A stretch of DNA of 64,000 bases from Orbus hercynius (GTDB lineage: Bacteria > Pseudomonadota > Gammaproteobacteria > Enterobacterales > Orbaceae). Of the stretch, positions 41,432-50,270 are shown piece by piece. Position 1 is the stretch's first letter, and each line of letters opens with the position of its first letter. The notes beneath the pieces are model-generated. The model searched no databases and was not told where the DNA came from. It saw only the letters and a program-made list of their open reading frames with translations. A program made the translations under genes and the position numbers. The DNA lies in contig NZ_RBWY01000001.1 in the NCBI RefSeq assembly GCF_003634275.1, positions 248,001 to 312,000 on the forward strand, given 5' to 3'.

Positions 41432-41510
41432 TGGCGGAAGCGCAGAGATTCGAACTCTGGGAGGGTTTCCCCTCGCCGGTTTTCAAGACCGGTGCCTTCA
41501 ACCGCTCGGC
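41432..41510 (-). repeat. att remnant: 79-nt duplicate of the tRNA-Ser 3' part
   Basis: Identical over 79 nt to 50183-50261, in the same orientation. It contains the tRNA-Ser from the D-arm to the CCA end but lacks the first nine bases of the acceptor/D region, so it is not a functional tRNA. It marks the far attachment site of the island that entered the tRNA gene. Confidence 0.92.
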
Positions 41511-41985
41511 TATTTTATCTAAAAATCCTGTAAATACTTAGATTTACAAGAGATATCAATAACCTTTTCAACATTCTTCGAGCTATTCAATAAAATTGGA
41601 AATGACCAATGAAGTGTCAGTTAAGTTACACTAATTTATCTCATTATTGCAAGCTATTTTTGTACAAATTAATCAATTATTTTTTATCTATCTAACTGTT
41701 TAAAATAGATAAATCTTAAGGGTGGGTACAGGGGATTAGGAGTAAATATTCTATAATGCAATACTCCTTAAAATTTTCTCACAGAAATGTTTATAAACTT
41801 CTATGAGATCTTTTTTTTTCCATTTTAATTGCTAAGCTATAGGTATATATATTAGTTGGGTATAGAGAGTTGCACAGTGGATTTCTAAGATAGTTTTATT
41901 ACATATACTATTAAATATAAACAAATACTAAAATTTATCATACAATAGCGGTATATCAATAATCATTAATTGGCAGATTTCTTCT
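41511..41985. other. Leader region of the restriction-modification genes
   Basis: 475 bp of AT-rich DNA inside the island without a plausible gene. It contains the terminator-like hairpin at 41778-41819 (listed) and the presumed mod promoter somewhere after 41820; no strong -35/-10 pair stood out. Confidence 0.4.
41778..41819 (+). terminator. Terminator-like hairpin upstream of mod
   Basis: CTCA-AGAA-GTTTATAAAC-TTCT-TGAG hairpin with small internal bulges, followed by ATC and nine T. On the plus strand it would stop transcripts entering from the left. It could insulate mod or be part of a leader RNA. Confidence 0.55.
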
Positions 41986-43968
41986 ATGCAAACTGAATTA
42001 ATAAAACAACTTAATCAAATATTAAAAGAATTTCCTGAATATTGGGAAGGTGAAACATTACAACGTTCAGTTGTTATTAATGATATTAAAAATAAAAAGC
42101 CCATTTTGATTAAAGCATTAATAAGCAACCCTAAAATAAAAGAACTATATGGCTCAGAAATTGAGGGTGTATTGATATTTGATTTTGAATCATTAATTAG
42201 TTTATTACGTTATAAAGAATATTGGGCAAATAGTTTTACTAAATATCGTAATAGTGTAGGGCTTACTAGTGAAGGAAAATACTTAAATTATAATTCGGAT
42301 GTTGTACTAGATTTTCCTTTTAAAGATTGTGTACTTGAAGGCGGAATGACTAAAGAAGAACAAGGTAAGAATGAAGTTTATTATAATGAAATCATCGCGC
42401 GTGATGAAATAGATAGGCTATTTTCTCCTAAGGCACTAACTAATGTTAAACGTTACAGTAAAGATGGAGTGGAAGACAACATAACAGATTTTAAAGATAG
42501 TGATAATCTCATTATCAAAGGTAATAACTTAATTGCATTGCACTCTTTAAAAGAACGTTATGCGGGTAAAGTTAAATTAATTTATATAGATCCTCCTTAT
42601 AACACAGGTAATGATAGTTTTAAGTATAACGACCGTTTTAATCATTCCACATGGCTTACGTTTATGAAAAGTAGACTTGAAGTGGCTAGTGAATTGTTGA
42701 GGGATGATGGTGTAATATTTATTCAATGTGATGATAATGAAAGCGCCTATCTTAAAGTGCTAATGGATAATATTTACGGAATAGATAATTTTATTAATAC
42801 TATTATTGTGAAATCATCGACACCAAGTGGAACAAAAACAGCTCATCGAGAAAAAACGATAATCAAACTTAAAGATTGTATACTTGTTTATAAAAAAAAT
42901 AATGTTAAATTTAATCCGCAATTTATAGTGAAAGATAAATGGGATTCTCATTATTCTTTATTTTTAGAAAAAATTGATAATCAATGGGTATTAAAAAATT
43001 TAATAGATATATTAATTGAGAATAAAATAATTGATAGAAAAATATCACTAAAGGATTTAGATATTAATAATAAAGACTTTAAAAAATTTTATTTAGAAAA
43101 TTGCGAAAATATTTGTAGATTACAATCACATAAAAATATTGACGCGAAGCAAGCCTCTAATAACATAGGGAATAGAGTTTATGAACATTTTAATGAGAAA
43201 GGTGACTTGTTAGGGCTATACTATAATGGACAAGTAATTACGCCGTTAAAACAGGGAATTCAAAAGGTTATTATTAATCGGCGATTTACAAATGACTTAG
43301 GAATGTTACTTTGTGATTTTTGGGATGATATTGATTTTCAAAATACTCAAAATGAAGGAGGTGTAAGCTTTCCAACAGCTAAGAAACCGGAAATGCTCAT
43401 ATCAAGAATAATTGAAATGACTACAAACAAAGATGATATTGTTCTCGACTTTTTTTTAGGTAGTGGAACAACTGCATCTGTTTGTATGAAATCAAGTAGA
43501 AAATTTATTGGTATTGAACAGATGGATTATGGGACAGATGATAGTGTTAAACGTCTTACAAATGTTATTGGTGGTGAGCAATCTGGAACTTCAACATTAT
43601 ATGCTTGGAGAGGTGGTGGTAGCTTTGTTTATGCTGAGTTAATGGAGTTTAATTATCGTTATATTCATGATATTCAAAAAGCACAAAACTATGATGAATT
43701 AGTTAAACTGTTTGAGCGAATGAAGGAGACTGCGCATCTTAATTACCTAGTTGAATTGGATAAAATTTTAGCTACTGAATATGAGACTGATGGTATTAGT
43801 CAAATGGTTGGATTTAATGAATTAGCACTAGAGGAACAAAAACAACTTTTAATTGAGTTACTTGATAAAAATCAACTGTACGTTAATGTTAGTGAAATGA
43901 ATGATAGCGATTTAAATGTTTCTGAGCCAGATAAAGCATTTACGAAAAGTTTTTATGGGAATGATTAA
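41986..43968 (+). CDS. mod: Type III restriction-modification methyltransferase (Mod)
   Basis: 660-aa beta-class N6-adenine DNA methyltransferase. Motif IV is DPPYNTGND (Asp202-Tyr205), motif I-type SAM loop is LDFFLGSGTT (487-496), and the target recognition domain lies between them (about 260-470), the order of the beta class used by Type III Mod subunits. Mod forms a dimer that reads the short asymmetric site and methylates one strand; it is also needed for cleavage. The recognition domain is AT-rich and lysine-rich, which is common for these variable parts. The stop is 2 bp before res, so both are co-translated. No simple repeats for phase variation were seen. Confidence 0.93.
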   Translation: MQTELIKQLNQILKEFPEYWEGETLQRSVVINDIKNKKPILIKALISNPKIKELYGSEIEGVLIFDFESLISLLRYKEYWANSFTKYRNSVGLTSEGKYLNYNSDVVLDFPFKDCVLEGGMTKEEQGKNEVYYNEIIARDEIDRLFSPKALTNVKRYSKDGVEDNITDFKDSDNLIIKGNNLIALHSLKERYAGKVKLIYIDPPYNTGNDSFKYNDRFNHSTWLTFMKSRLEVASELLRDDGVIFIQCDDNESAYLKVLMDNIYGIDNFINTIIVKSSTPSGTKTAHREKTIIKLKDCILVYKKNNVKFNPQFIVKDKWDSHYSLFLEKIDNQWVLKNLIDILIENKIIDRKISLKDLDINNKDFKKFYLENCENICRLQSHKNIDAKQASNNIGNRVYEHFNEKGDLLGLYYNGQVITPLKQGIQKVIINRRFTNDLGMLLCDFWDDIDFQNTQNEGGVSFPTAKKPEMLISRIIEMTTNKDDIVLDFFLGSGTTASVCMKSSRKFIGIEQMDYGTDDSVKRLTNVIGGEQSGTSTLYAWRGGGSFVYAELMEFNYRYIHDIQKAQNYDELVKLFERMKETAHLNYLVELDKILATEYETDGISQMVGFNELALEEQKQLLIELLDKNQLYVNVSEMNDSDLNVSEPDKAFTKSFYGND

Positions 43969-43970
43969 TT

Positions 43971-46595
43971 ATGGCAAAAGAAATTAAGACGAATAAATTG
44001 TTATTCAATCAATTTAAGGAGTTTGATAAATTCGGATTGTTTACCGAGGTTTATCAAGTGCCTAGTTATATTAAAAATAACTTAAAAGATACATTACGAG
44101 CATATCAAGAAGAGTCCTTGCGTTATTTACATTATGCACAAAGTAGCCCTAGTGCGAGTGAACAATATAATCATTTACTGTTTAACATGGCAACGGGTGC
44201 AGGTAAAACCATGGTGATGGCTGCGACAATACTTTACATGTTTAAAGAGCAAGGTTATCAAAATTTTATTTTCTTTGTACACACTGATGCTATTATCCAA
44301 AAAACTAAAGAAAATCTATTAAATACGTTATCATCTAAATATTTGTTTACGCCGTCAATTGAAATTGATGGTGAAAAAATTCAGATTGAAGCGGTTGAAA
44401 CATTTCCGGTTACGCCAAATAAAAATACAATTTATTTAAAATTATCGACTATTCATAAGATTCACGATGAACTAAATAATTATAAAGAAAATACTGTGAC
44501 GTATGATGACTTAAAAGAGTTACCATTAGTGTTATTAGGTGATGAGGCTCACCATTTTAATGCCGAGACAAAGGCGAAAGGTAAAGCGAAAAATTCATCA
44601 GAAAATGAAGAACTCACTTGGGAAAGGACGATTGAAAAAATCCTTGCTCTACAGCTTAAAAATCGACTATTTGAATTTACCGCCACTATTAACTTAGATA
44701 GCAAAGAGATTTATCAGAAGTATAAAGATAAGATTATTTATCAATATGACTTGAAACAGTTTATGGATGATGGTTATTCTAAAAAAGTGATGTTACTTGA
44801 GGCTAATCAGAATGATAATGAAAAAATGCTTGATGCAGTATTATTAAGCCAATATCGTAAGTTAGTTGCAATAGATAATAATATCATTGGGTTTAAACCG
44901 ATTATTTTATTCAAATCAAATCAGATTGCGATATCTAAAGCAAAACAAGATGACTTTATCCAGATTATTGATAATTTAACGCCAGAGAAAATCACCACGC
45001 ATTTAAATAATAAGAAGACACAATTAAGCTCAGTAAATAGTATTTGGCATAAAGTGATAACGCGTTATAGTCAGAGCGATTTAATTGTTATTGTTGAGAT
45101 GATTAAAGATGACTTTAATGAAATGAATCTTCTTAATGTAAACAAAAGTGATTTAATGGAGGAGCAACCAGTATTACTTAATACGTTAGAGGAAATTGAT
45201 AACCCGATTCGTGTTGTATTTGCGGTTGCTAAAGTTAATGAAGGATGGGATGTTCTTAATCTCTATGATATTGTCAGAATTAGCGAAAAAGCGTCATCGA
45301 CGAAAGCCAATACTGACAGTGAAGCCCAGTTAATTGGACGTGGAGCTCGTTACTATCCATTTATTTATGATAGTGATAAAAGTTATACACGTCGTTTTGA
45401 TAAAAACAATCACGAACTAGCGATACTTGAACAGCTTCATTATCACACAATCAATGAGCCATCATATATTAAAGTCTTACACGCCTCGTTAAAGCAAGCG
45501 GATATCGATTTTAATTCCGATGGTAATGGTATTGTTTATCATGCCAAATTAAAAGATAACTTTAAAAAATCAAAAACCTATCAATATGGTAAGTTGTATT
45601 TTAATAAAGTTGAAGAAATTACGAGTGAACAGCGCTCATGGAGCTCATACTCGCTTGAGACACATTTTGAAGAGGAATATAAAACAGCTAATGAAACATC
45701 ATTAAGTGAATTAAGTGATACTAATCTTAATGGGCAATATAAACTTGAGCCATTGAAGTTGGATAAGCGATTTATTAATAAGGCAATGGCAAAACAATCA
45801 TTTTATTCATTTAACAATCTTCAATATTACTTTCCTAAATTAAAAAGCATGACTGAGTTTATCGATAAAGACAGTAATTATTTAGGTAAGATTCAAATTG
45901 ATATCAAATTACCATCATCTTTAAGTGTTGATGACTTTACACCGAAAGAAAAGCTACAATGCCTCGAAAATGTATTAAGTAAAGTAGCGGATAACATCCG
46001 TCGTAATTATCGTAAGTATAAAGGAACGTATGAGTTTATTAGTCAACCTTTAAAAAATATTATTATGGATTATAGCGCCTATATAGATTCTTCAATTGCC
46101 ATCAATCAAAAAATCACAGCAAACAGTACAATAGGTAAACCGTGGTATGTGTTTGATACAGCAATTTTAAATCAATTAGAGCACCGATTAGTTGAATTAC
46201 TTGATAAGTTTATCGTTAAACTGAAAGAAAAATATGATGATATTTACCTTATTCGTAATGATGAACAGTCAACACGTTTTAAATTGACAGAGTTTGATGG
46301 TGTAAGAGGGTTCATGCCTGATTTTATTTTACTTATGAAAAATAAGCATGAAGATGCTTATTATCAAGTGTTTCTTGAGCCTAAAGGCGATGACCGTTTA
46401 TTGGGTGATAAATGGAAAGAAGATATGCTTGAAGCAATTAACGAAGAAAATATTATTTTCTTAGACGGTGATGATAACATTCGTTTAATTGGAATTAAAT
46501 TCTTTGCAGATAGTCGACGGAATGAGTTCGTTAAGGATTTCTCTAACAAGCTTTATGATGGGAAACCACTTGAAGATGATTTATTAATATCTTGA
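43971..46595 (+). CDS. res: Type III restriction endonuclease subunit (Res)
   Basis: 874-aa SF2 translocase/nuclease. Helicase motif I ATGAGKT (residues ~74-80), motif II DEAH (191-194), later VNEGWDVLN and the QLIGRGARYYPF motif VI. The C-terminal nuclease has MPDFILL (Asp784) and LEPKG (Glu803, Lys805), a PD-(D/E)XK arrangement. Together with Mod it cuts DNA 25-27 bp from unmethylated head-to-head sites after ATP-driven sliding. Length and motif order are those of Type III Res. All catalytic residues appear intact, so the system should be active. It starts two bases after mod. Confidence 0.94.
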   Translation: MAKEIKTNKLLFNQFKEFDKFGLFTEVYQVPSYIKNNLKDTLRAYQEESLRYLHYAQSSPSASEQYNHLLFNMATGAGKTMVMAATILYMFKEQGYQNFIFFVHTDAIIQKTKENLLNTLSSKYLFTPSIEIDGEKIQIEAVETFPVTPNKNTIYLKLSTIHKIHDELNNYKENTVTYDDLKELPLVLLGDEAHHFNAETKAKGKAKNSSENEELTWERTIEKILALQLKNRLFEFTATINLDSKEIYQKYKDKIIYQYDLKQFMDDGYSKKVMLLEANQNDNEKMLDAVLLSQYRKLVAIDNNIIGFKPIILFKSNQIAISKAKQDDFIQIIDNLTPEKITTHLNNKKTQLSSVNSIWHKVITRYSQSDLIVIVEMIKDDFNEMNLLNVNKSDLMEEQPVLLNTLEEIDNPIRVVFAVAKVNEGWDVLNLYDIVRISEKASSTKANTDSEAQLIGRGARYYPFIYDSDKSYTRRFDKNNHELAILEQLHYHTINEPSYIKVLHASLKQADIDFNSDGNGIVYHAKLKDNFKKSKTYQYGKLYFNKVEEITSEQRSWSSYSLETHFEEEYKTANETSLSELSDTNLNGQYKLEPLKLDKRFINKAMAKQSFYSFNNLQYYFPKLKSMTEFIDKDSNYLGKIQIDIKLPSSLSVDDFTPKEKLQCLENVLSKVADNIRRNYRKYKGTYEFISQPLKNIIMDYSAYIDSSIAINQKITANSTIGKPWYVFDTAILNQLEHRLVELLDKFIVKLKEKYDDIYLIRNDEQSTRFKLTEFDGVRGFMPDFILLMKNKHEDAYYQVFLEPKGDDRLLGDKWKEDMLEAINEENIIFLDGDDNIRLIGIKFFADSRRNEFVKDFSNKLYDGKPLEDDLLIS

Positions 46596-47278
46596 TGACA
46601 AGTACAGTATAGAACTTTAGCCTAAGTGCGGTATTGGTAGTTGTACATAGAGTGTAATCTATAACAAAATTAATCATTAATGATTTAATTTGCGTATTTT
46701 AATTTATTGTTTTAACGTAAGAAATAAATTATATTTCTATATTTTATTTTCATAGAAAATAATATAACTAGTTATTCTATTTTTTAATCGTAAACGTTAG
46801 ATATTTTTAGTATCAACAAATACGGAAGTATGAGTTAACGTTGTGTTACGCTATATAATGCGTAGCATTAATTAAACTTAATAATTAACTTAGTTATGAT
46901 ACATAAATAATAACACTTAAAAAGATAGTAAATTGAAATAGGATGATAGATTTAAATATAACATTAAATTCAATCTTAATTTAAGTAATATCAATGAATA
47001 ACATAAAGAATTGATAATAACATTGATTAAATGATAACGATAAAATGTATTACCTAAACTAAGTAAATTAATGTTATTAAAAAATACTGTAACAATGTTT
47101 AATCTTAGTAAGCGTAAGATTAATAATATAGGCTTACTTACTTTTTTAGGTAAATACACTTATGTTATCATTATTGAGTTAATTTATTTTCTGTCTTAAC
47201 TGTATCTCATTTTCAATGAAAATATTTGAATATCACATATATAGACGTAATTTAAGAGAAAAAAGTGCAATTTATTTT
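46596..47278. other. AT-rich spacer between convergent res and sigma gene
   Basis: 683 bp, extremely AT-rich. A reading frame on the minus strand (46917-47159) lacks a ribosome site and looks random. At 47099-47145 two overlapping stem-loops occur (see finding). I see no protein signature or tRNA. Confidence 0.5.
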
Positions 47279-48091
47279 TTAGTTTTTGAATACTTTTTGC
47301 AATTTATTTTTCAATGTGTCCAATTCGTACTTAATCGTTCTTTCAGACATGTTAGCCCTATTTGATGTTTCTTTTATTGTATATCCATCAATTAAATGAG
47401 GTATGAGTATTTGAGGATAATGTCTTCTAATTGTTGATTCAATTAATTCATCCTCTTTATTGTTTAGAACAAAGTCATCTAATTCACTACTAAAATAATC
47501 ATTATCAGTCATTTCTTTAGTGCAGATAACATCTGATGGTATAAAGTTTTCAAGCGCTAGTCTTTTTATATTTTGATTTTTTCTTAGCTCGTCATTAATA
47601 AGATTGGTAATGGTTGTTTTCATATAAGGCATTAGCTCATAAACAGGTTTAGTAAGTTTTCTATCGAGTAATTTTAAAAAAGCTTGTTGAACAATATCCT
47701 CACAATCTATATGACTTACATTTAGGTGATTTGTGTACATTTTGTTTTTCGCAAACTTACGTAGCTTCTTATAATTCTCCTCATAAAATTTTTCTATGTA
47801 TTGTTTTGCGTATTTGAGCGAGGTAAATACACCTTTATAATTCACGTCTGATTGACTAATTGTAACCGTCTCTTTTAACTCGTGGTACTCACCAATATTG
47901 AATCCATACATTCTGTTAAGGTGTTGTTCAGCCGTTTTTATATCAAGGTGAATAGATGTTGTTGTATCTATTTTTCCTGTTACATGTAGTTCATCCATGT
48001 AATGAGTGACAAATCCAACCCCACATAAATAACTCGCAGTTTGCTGATTGTCACAGGTAATAGTATGTTTTCCGTCGTAGAAAAAATCCAT
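47279..48091 (-). CDS. Sigma-70-like (ECF-type) factor with N-terminal extension
   Basis: 270-aa protein. Residues ~102-172 look like sigma region 2: FYEENYKKLRKFAKNKMY, then HIDCEDIVQQAFLKLLDRKL and MPYMKTTITNLINDELRK. Residues ~216-268 look like region 4: YPQILIPHLIDGYTIKETS and RANMSERTIKYELDTLKNKL, with a helix-turn-helix. A ~100-residue N-terminal part (MDFFYDGKHTITCDNQQ..) is not known to me and may sense or bind something; it holds two cysteines and several histidines. A sigma factor is a rare cargo for such a small island and might direct island genes such as integrase or restriction genes. It ends convergent with res and lies ~250 bp downstream of the small membrane-protein gene. Confidence 0.7.
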   Translation of the reverse strand: MDFFYDGKHTITCDNQQTASYLCGVGFVTHYMDELHVTGKIDTTTSIHLDIKTAEQHLNRMYGFNIGEYHELKETVTISQSDVNYKGVFTSLKYAKQYIEKFYEENYKKLRKFAKNKMYTNHLNVSHIDCEDIVQQAFLKLLDRKLTKPVYELMPYMKTTITNLINDELRKNQNIKRLALENFIPSDVICTKEMTDNDYFSSELDDFVLNNKEDELIESTIRRHYPQILIPHLIDGYTIKETSNRANMSERTIKYELDTLKNKLQKVFKN

Positions 48092-48291
48092 TGTAATATT
48101 CCTTATTTTTATTCTTTTGAGTAAAGAAGCAAATACTTTTATGTTTGCTCTCTATCAATATGATAGTAATAAAGTTCATGACTAGAATTCCGAAAATAAT
48201 TTATAACTACTTTGACGTTTATTATCTAGCTAAAAACTTTTTGTTTTTAAAATAATGGAGATATTTTATCAAAAACAAAACAAGAAGTACA

Positions 48292-48336
48292 ATATGTAGT
48301 ATCTATTAATGGGATTTTATACTATATGTTGTATCT
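48292..48336. repeat. Two direct repeats upstream of the sigma gene
   Basis: ATATGTAGTATCT (48292-48304) and ATATGTTGTATCT (48324-48336), 12 of 13 bases alike and exactly 32 bp apart (about three helical turns). They lie in the 247-bp interval between the membrane-protein and sigma genes, ~200-245 bp before the sigma start. This spacing suits a regulator binding one face of the helix. Confidence 0.5.
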
Positions 48337-48338
48337 TG

Positions 48339-48638
48339 TTAGTTTTTGAATCGAGATAAACTAAACAATGAAAAGACTGATGGAATGCCATTGACGATAA
48401 TAGTGAAGGCTAATGGCCACATAACGAGTAAGATAGCCCCCCAGATTGGCCATTCCCATGCATTGACAGCTCCATATAAAGCTGCAACAGCTAATATGAT
48501 AGGAAATTCCAATAATATGAGCGCTATAATAAAAGCTATAACCTTATTCATGTCGAAAGCTATAATTATTCCATCCCAGCCAGCAAAGAAGACAACGGCA
48601 CTAATTGAAAGCATGACACCTCTTATTATGAATATCAT
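48339..48638 (-). CDS. Small integral membrane protein (99 aa)
   Basis: Unknown family. Three or four hydrophobic segments: about residues 2-20, 30-60 and 65-88 (VMLSISAVVFFAGW; FIIALILLEFPIILAVAALYG; WGAILLVMWPLAFTIIV). A strong ribosome site AAGGAG lies 7 nt before the ATG, which favours this strand over an overlapping frame on the other. It is between integrase and sigma gene, same strand. It might be a membrane partner of the sigma factor (anti-sigma-like) or an unrelated small inner membrane protein. Confidence 0.65.
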   Translation of the reverse strand: MIFIIRGVMLSISAVVFFAGWDGIIIAFDMNKVIAFIIALILLEFPIILAVAALYGAVNAWEWPIWGAILLVMWPLAFTIIVNGIPSVFSLFSLSRFKN

Positions 48639-48747
48639 ATGATAACTCCTTATTTATGTTGAATTTTAAAAATATTTTAATTAGATACCATTCAATGGAA
48701 GACTTCAAATCGTTTACATCGATCCATTGATGGGTTATTGATCGTTT

Positions 48748-50100
48748 TTAAAGATCAATCCTTTTTAACGATTTTACTAAAGCCATTTCAAGTGAATGAT
48801 GCAGGGTTTCTATATGAATGGCTTTTCCATAAGTATCATAAGCAAGGCTATTAGAACTATGCCCTAGGATTTGCTGAGCCGTTGATAGTGGCGTTCCGCT
48901 GTTCTTTAATACGGTGGCCAGGCTATGCCTAAAAGAGTGGAAGGATAAGCCATTAACGTTGTTTAATGTATGCTTTAATAAGGTGCGATTAAACCATTTA
49001 CTGACTTTATCACTATATCGTCCTTTATCAGTCCAAGTGACATCAAAGAGTAAATTATCTTGATGTCCACGAGAAGAAACATAGTCCATAAACTCATTAC
49101 AATCAAAACCAAAGGCATGATTGACTAAAGGAATAGTACGAGCACTGTATTGGTTTTTTAAGCTCTTTCCTTCAACCCCGTGAGCATTGATATCTAGGTA
49201 AATAATGTTGTTATCTGTTTTTATTACATCTTTGACTTGTAATTGGCAGATTTCATTCAGTCTAGCGCCTGTTATTGCTGAAATAAGAGGGATGTAATAT
49301 TGCCACGCTAAGCCGTTTCTAGCGTAGTGAATTTTACATGATGATAGTATTAGCTCTATTTGTTTTAGGCTAAAGGCGTTACGTTTATCCGCTTCTTTTT
49401 GGCTATCCTTTAACAATAAGTCTGTTGCTAAATTCTTTTTGATAAGGTCATTCTTCTCAGCCCAGTTAAATACTGAGGATAAAAAGATTAGGTGTCCATT
49501 AATGGTTCTGATTGATAGTGTTTTATCATAGGATTGGCTTAATACTTCGGCTAATGACTGGTCTTTAAATACCTGTTTTCTGTTTACAGGGAGTCGTTTA
49601 ATCACTTCTCTAACTTCTAACATATCTTTGCGAGTAATACTGCCCACATCATTTAGCTTTAAGTAATCAAATATTTCAATGAGTAGGGCTTTATTCGCTT
49701 GTGAGCTTAGCTGTGTCGCATATTTCCAGTTACTCCCTTTTTCCTGAATGTAGTTATTACAAAGCTCACTGATTGAGGTGATAGCTTGTGAGGGAGAGAA
49801 TAAATCAGTTGGTGATGCTTGAGTGATAAAGCATACAGGTTTAATTTGATTATCTAATTCTACAGTTGATTTGAAATATCTCTGTAGCTCTTGATATGAA
49901 TTAAACTCGGAGATTAACTGTTGTAATTCAAGTTCCTGTTTAACCATCTGTAACTTGGATAATGCTGTTTTCTTATGTTTAGTTCTTAGTGATAATGAGT
50001 AGATAGAGTCTTGATATTTTAATCTGATGTAATAGACAGGTTTTCTAAGATAAAGTGAAATAGAATAGTTTAAAAGTTGTTGTGATGTAAGCTGATTCAT
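48748..50100 (-). CDS. int: Tyrosine recombinase/integrase of the island
   Basis: 450-aa phage-type integrase. Catalytic residues are visible: Arg280 (TGARLNE), His388-x-x-Arg391 (HSFRH), His414 (LGHSS) and the nucleophile Tyr424 (DTYGK). The N-terminal ~110 residues form an arm-type and linker region (YYIRLKYQDSIYSLSLRT), then a core-binding domain (about 110-215). It lies 82 bp from the CCA end of tRNA-Ser, where it would catalyse integration and excision at the 79-nt repeats. It appears intact. Confidence 0.92.
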   Translation of the reverse strand: MNQLTSQQLLNYSISLYLRKPVYYIRLKYQDSIYSLSLRTKHKKTALSKLQMVKQELELQQLISEFNSYQELQRYFKSTVELDNQIKPVCFITQASPTDLFSPSQAITSISELCNNYIQEKGSNWKYATQLSSQANKALLIEIFDYLKLNDVGSITRKDMLEVREVIKRLPVNRKQVFKDQSLAEVLSQSYDKTLSIRTINGHLIFLSSVFNWAEKNDLIKKNLATDLLLKDSQKEADKRNAFSLKQIELILSSCKIHYARNGLAWQYYIPLISAITGARLNEICQLQVKDVIKTDNNIIYLDINAHGVEGKSLKNQYSARTIPLVNHAFGFDCNEFMDYVSSRGHQDNLLFDVTWTDKGRYSDKVSKWFNRTLLKHTLNNVNGLSFHSFRHSLATVLKNSGTPLSTAQQILGHSSNSLAYDTYGKAIHIETLHHSLEMALVKSLKRIDL

Positions 50101-50182
50101 AATAACCTTCTGTATACAGTTATGTTACAGTTTAATTAGGTCATTTGAAATTTCTGAATGGAATCAAAAAATTTGTTGAAGA

Positions 50183-50270
50183 TGGCGGAAGCGCAGAGAT
50201 TCGAACTCTGGGAGGGTTTCCCCTCGCCGGTTTTCAAGACCGGTGCCTTCAACCGCTCGGCCACACTTCC
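50183..50270 (-). tRNA. serT: tRNA-Ser (anticodon UGA)
   Basis: 88-nt class II tRNA with long variable arm: starts GGAAGTGTGGCCGAGCGG, anticodon loop CTTGAAAA with TGA, T-arm GTTCGAATC and an encoded CCA end. It is almost identical to what I recall of E. coli serT. It is the intact copy regenerated by the island; its 3' 79 nt are duplicated at 41432-41510. Confidence 0.97.

Follow-up and report, generated by a model that had tools for sequence, protein, structure and literature searches.

Why does a small genomic island built around an integrase and a Type III restriction-modification system carry its own sigma factor, and which promoters would such a sigma factor serve? The locus lies in a 64,000-nucleotide stretch of DNA from Orbus hercynius (the window, whose coordinates are used throughout). 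The gene is a 270-amino acid open reading frame at 47279-48091 on the minus strand, with an ATG start. An earlier note on this DNA had its position exactly right without stating the strand, and the open reading frame has been confirmed as real. The gene and its surroundings contain the following features, listed by position:

41432..41510, minus strand: distal copy of the attachment site, 79 bp identical to tRNA-Ser, lacking its first 9 bases
41986..43968, plus strand: mod, Type III DNA methyltransferase, 660 aa (Pfam N6_N4_Mtase and TypeIII_RM_meth; PADLOC MTase_III, 782 bits)
43971..46595, plus strand: res, Type III restriction subunit, 874 aa (Pfam ResIII; PADLOC REase_III, 817 bits)
46596..47278, no strand assigned: noncoding DNA separating the convergently oriented res and sigma genes, with a core at 46800-47030 that is unusually conserved between species
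47279..48091, minus strand: predicted ECF-type sigma factor gene, 270 aa
47285..47446, minus strand: predicted sigma region 4 with helix-turn-helix, about residues 216-269 (TIGR02937, PF07638, profile alignment)
47573..47788, minus strand: predicted sigma region 2, residues 102-173 (PF04542, 28.1 bits)
47798..48091, minus strand: N-terminal domain, codons 1-98 (no family match; dN/dS 0.28; conserved Cys/His)
48100..48104, minus strand: Shine-Dalgarno-like AAGGA ahead of the sigma start codon (from the sequence; kept in the sister-species relative)
48123..48153, minus strand: possible leader hairpin upstream of the sigma ribosome site (predicted in both species; weak, from two sequences)
48339..48638, minus strand: 99-aa membrane protein with three hydrophobic segments (PHROG 3075, of unknown function; hydropathy)
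48748..50100, minus strand: tyrosine recombinase (integrase), 450 aa (Phage_integrase, 71 bits)
50183..50270, minus strand: tRNA-Ser(UGA), attachment site (ARAGORN; repeat)

The element measures 8.8 kb (41432-50261) between two tRNA-Ser(UGA) copies, with a 79-bp exact direct repeat at 41432-41510 and 50183-50261. The integrase gene starts about 80 bp downstream of the tRNA-Ser and runs in the same direction. With an integrase beside a tRNA, direct repeats, and an empty site in a relative, the element is a tRNA-integrated genomic island, and the sigma gene, lying between the tRNA-Ser(UGA) copies together with the integrase, is island cargo, as had been proposed.

Three other genomes of the genus, G403, G157 and G212, were available for comparison. 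The sister species, G403, has the same island with the same gene order between two tRNA-Ser copies, and its sigma is 71% identical, so that the search suggested earlier for the same gene beside integrases in other genomes did find a syntenic counterpart. G157 has an island at the same tRNA with the integrase and the membrane protein, different cargo, and no sigma gene; in G212 the tRNA-Ser site is empty. The known distribution of the sigma is thus narrow, comprising two species. Three side observations came from the same comparison. The central part of mod (42750-43650) has strongly diverged between the otherwise similar islands, to 47-67% DNA identity, as would be expected if the target-recognition region had been exchanged. 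In G157, the island without a sigma contains tandem genes of 558 and 142 amino acids with no family match (L014, 8763-10867), which by their arrangement resemble a putative toxin and partner gene. G403 also has, about 25 kb away, a further integrase gene that is truncated and interrupted by an insertion sequence (L013, 10091-10837).

Is the protein a sigma factor at all? The earlier note had recognized regions 2 and 4 of an ECF-type sigma factor, and profile searches bear this out. Region 2, for which an HMM match had been set beforehand as the check, was matched by the Pfam model Sigma70_r2 (PF04542) over residues 102-173 with a score of 28.1 bits, the cut-off being 24. Two full-length models also scored above their cut-offs: Sigma70_ECF (PF07638) over residues 100-266, at 29.1 bits against 21.1, and the NCBI model TIGR02937, sigma70-ECF, over residues 99-266, at 55.5 bits against 42.9 (E 4.9e-15). 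Both reach across region 4, whose own single-region model remained below cut-off in the island sigma (11.9 bits, E 0.19) as in its sister-species relative (17.2 bits, E 0.004), so the same check on region 4 succeeded with the full-length models only. No Pfam match to region 3 or region 1.1 was found in the protein, and the linker from region 2 to region 4 is about 43 amino acids; this short linker and the absent region 3 match indicate an ECF architecture. A profile alignment of the sigma with the host's RpoE and two ordinary ECFs gave an E-value of 2.2e-7 over residues 124-268. In the region 2.2 motif (D..VQE), D132, V134 and Q135 are kept and the glutamate is replaced by Q136 in both sequences; the core-polymerase contact motif is thus partly preserved, and the complete lack of contact residues named earlier as grounds for rejection was not seen. 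A low-confidence AlphaFold model had as its top PDB matches the Mtb SigH initiation complex, RpoE-NepR, and E. coli SigmaE, with the best E-value only 2.6e-3 and the model itself weak; the structure prediction proposed earlier thus returned ECF sigmas, while leaving residues 1-98 unusable. PADLOC matched nothing in any part of the protein. Judged from its sequence, the protein is an ECF-type sigma factor, one of four proteins with a sigma-70 region 2 in the host genome.

The unfamiliar N-terminal part of about 100 residues, also pointed out in the earlier note, has kept its novelty. Residues 1-98 gave only chance-level matches in Pfam, NCBIfam and PHROGs, and no PDB match either by sequence or by fold. 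Two scans of genome_contigs and searches of viral contigs, phages and plasmids gave no relatives of this domain, nor did the genomes drawn from the order, class and phylum; the order-level sample was one without the sister species, whose sigma was recovered by the family-level search. Several weak matches were judged to be chance: IGPD (E 0.08-0.13), an isochorismate-synthase-like protein and eIF-5, and phrog_36332, which matches phage 121Q at a tblastn E-value of 3. By these searches no other relative of the N-terminal domain was found outside the genus. The domain is soluble by hydropathy. Its predicted structure was unusable, with a pLDDT of about 25-55 in both the whole-protein and the N-domain runs, because the prediction rests on the only two sequences known.

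The two sequences nevertheless allow selection to be compared along the protein. Between the sigma and its G403 relative, dN/dS is 0.28 for residues 1-98, 0.22 for region 2 and 0.32 for the rest; residues 1-98 are 71% identical, and region 2 is the most constrained part, with 61 of its 74 residues identical between the species. By this measure selection has held the N-terminal part as firmly as the remainder of the sigma, and it is a real part of the protein. The cysteines and histidines previously noticed there are conserved as well: both N-terminal cysteines, C13 and C23, recur in the relative, as do histidines 9, 30, 36, 48 and 70, while cysteines elsewhere do not. These conserved residues suggest a metal or redox site in the N-terminal domain. 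Two conserved cysteines alone do not make a metal site, and the canonical HxxxCxxC zinc motif is absent from the sigma protein.

ECF sigmas without a neighboring anti-sigma often have regulatory extensions, and at least 26 ECF groups have such extensions at the N- or C-terminus (PMC8999054). At this locus there is no adjacent dedicated anti-sigma gene. The only neighboring membrane protein, of 99 amino acids, matched none of the anti-sigma models, and as a dedicated anti-sigma it was ruled out by its occurrence without a sigma in the G157 island. Its presence alongside the integrase in each of the three islands hints that it may be part of the mobility module. What the sigma gene does have is an extra domain under selection, residues 1-98, beside regions 2 and 4.

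The role first proposed for the sigma was that of an island switch, which on a given signal would turn on integrase or restriction genes, and with the former perhaps excision. The same element has been kept in two species with the same neighbors, and SigN of plasmid pBS32 in B. subtilis exemplifies element-encoded sigmas whose action is mainly on the element itself (PMC6751061); the accompanying remark that a sigma factor is a rare thing to find on a small island was reasonable, but SigN is a precedent. Against a role in mobility, the integrase and membrane-protein genes persist without a sigma at the same tRNA in G157, where their upstream DNA is recognizable and conserved. Against a role in restriction, relatives of res covering at least 80% of the query are carried by at least 205 plasmid records (66.7-68.2% identity, about 67%, among the best matches listed, with some of the 205 below 60%), whereas tblastn of the sigma found no relative in the plasmid collection; three of the res-bearing plasmid records have no sigma gene annotated near res, in a PLSDB annotation that is incomplete. 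Nor do the island promoters speak for common control: two-box motifs conserved in the intergenic regions of both species were shared between island genes only at chance-level counts, and LexA-like boxes were likewise at chance level, with none upstream of the sigma gene. An integrase and membrane protein without a sigma, res relatives without a sigma and the lack of a shared motif together indicate that sigma control of the integrase or restriction genes is not required; the evidence leans against it, and we consider the island switch unlikely.

A more interesting candidate target or partner, indeed the most interesting one, is the 0.68-kb noncoding stretch lying between the sigma gene and res, which converge on it. 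Its core (46800-47030) is identical to the sister-species copy at 210 of 230 positions (91%), against 57-68% identity at four-fold degenerate sites of the island genes in the same two species; for the intergenic DNA ahead of mod and ahead of the sigma gene, the figure is 54-75%. Local recombination could also raise the identity of the core, but constraint appears more likely, since the core contrasts with silent sites on both sides. An 80-aa open reading frame within the stretch (46917-47159) was rejected as coding, because indels break it in the relative and the mismatches have no third-base pattern. The main product of the sigma might be an RNA or a DNA-borne function of this stretch, for example a small RNA gene transcribed by it. 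In favor of this, besides the conserved core, both sigma-bearing islands have the stretch, whereas searches of the G157 island, which lacks a sigma, did not find it; searches of plasmids, phages and viral contigs were likewise negative. However, nothing in Rfam exceeded the gathering score over the region, no covariation was seen (between two sequences only), and neither a terminator nor a promoter-like excess was detected. The stretch also adjoins res, and could belong to res or be a replication or transfer site. On balance this assignment is improbable. Distinctly improbable, too, is that the protein is a degenerate or repurposed sigma relative that does not bind RNA polymerase, acting for example as a DNA-binding regulator. 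The weak region 4, the change from E to Q at a core-contact position and the low similarity to other ECFs would all fit such a protein, but region 2 is precisely where constraint is strongest, as if polymerase binding had been kept.

The reading that we favor, with moderate confidence, is that of a functional ECF sigma to which a regulatory domain is fused at the N-terminus, and which travels as cargo on a tRNA-Ser Type III island. As no anti-sigma gene lies beside the sigma, we infer that the N-terminal domain would itself serve the module formed by regions 2 and 4 as a built-in sensor or inhibitor; this gating role is tentative, two sequences being known. With two cysteines and several histidines conserved in this domain, the signal changing it may be a metal or redox one. 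On such a change the sigma would bind RNA polymerase and initiate transcription at its own promoter as well as at those of a small regulon. The candidate targets would be the conserved noncoding stretch and host genes, with the integrase and restriction genes not obligate. It is a long shot, but conceivable, that the protein founds a new group of ECFs, being a one-component sigma with a sensor domain of a new type at its N-terminus and with the adjacent noncoding element as its main target; if so, the defense island that carries it would sense a signal and respond while its integrase and restriction promoters stay uninvolved.

It is unusual for a minimal defense island to retain a sigma. Since the host has only four region-2 sigma proteins, a mobile sigma would be a large change to its transcription. 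Should the N-terminal domain prove to be a sensor, the gene would be a compact, portable switch from signal to promoter, and would illustrate how a mobile element can bring along promoter specificity of its own.

How does this sigma compare with known systems? With the host's RpoE it shares the ECF fold and alignable regions 2 and 4, although identity to the set of RpoE and ECFs is only about 15% in the profile alignment, and RpoE has no N-terminal extension. Like SigN, it is encoded on a mobile element; SigN is LexA-induced and drives a plasmid regulon (PMC6751061), whereas no excess of LexA boxes was found here. OrbS is an ECF sigma with a demonstrated on-board cysteine sensor of Fe(II) (PMC9023288). 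Both proteins have cysteines outside the sigma core, a possible sensor in the island sigma, but those of OrbS are four and C-terminal, while the island sigma has two conserved N-terminal ones with at most a conjectural metal role. There is also a likeness in architecture: as in ECF41, ECF238/CorE, ECF42 and ECF36 (group 4), regions 2 and 4 are joined by a short linker, there is no neighboring anti-sigma, and an extra domain lies in line with the sigma core (PMC8999054). Known ECF extensions are mostly C-terminal, unlike that of the island sigma; the extension of ECF36 is N-terminal but has transmembrane helices (PMC8999054), whereas the one described here is soluble by hydropathy and matches no family. 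ECF sigmas with built-in sensor domains are known, and it is the soluble, N-terminal kind, to which this protein would belong, that has been little described.
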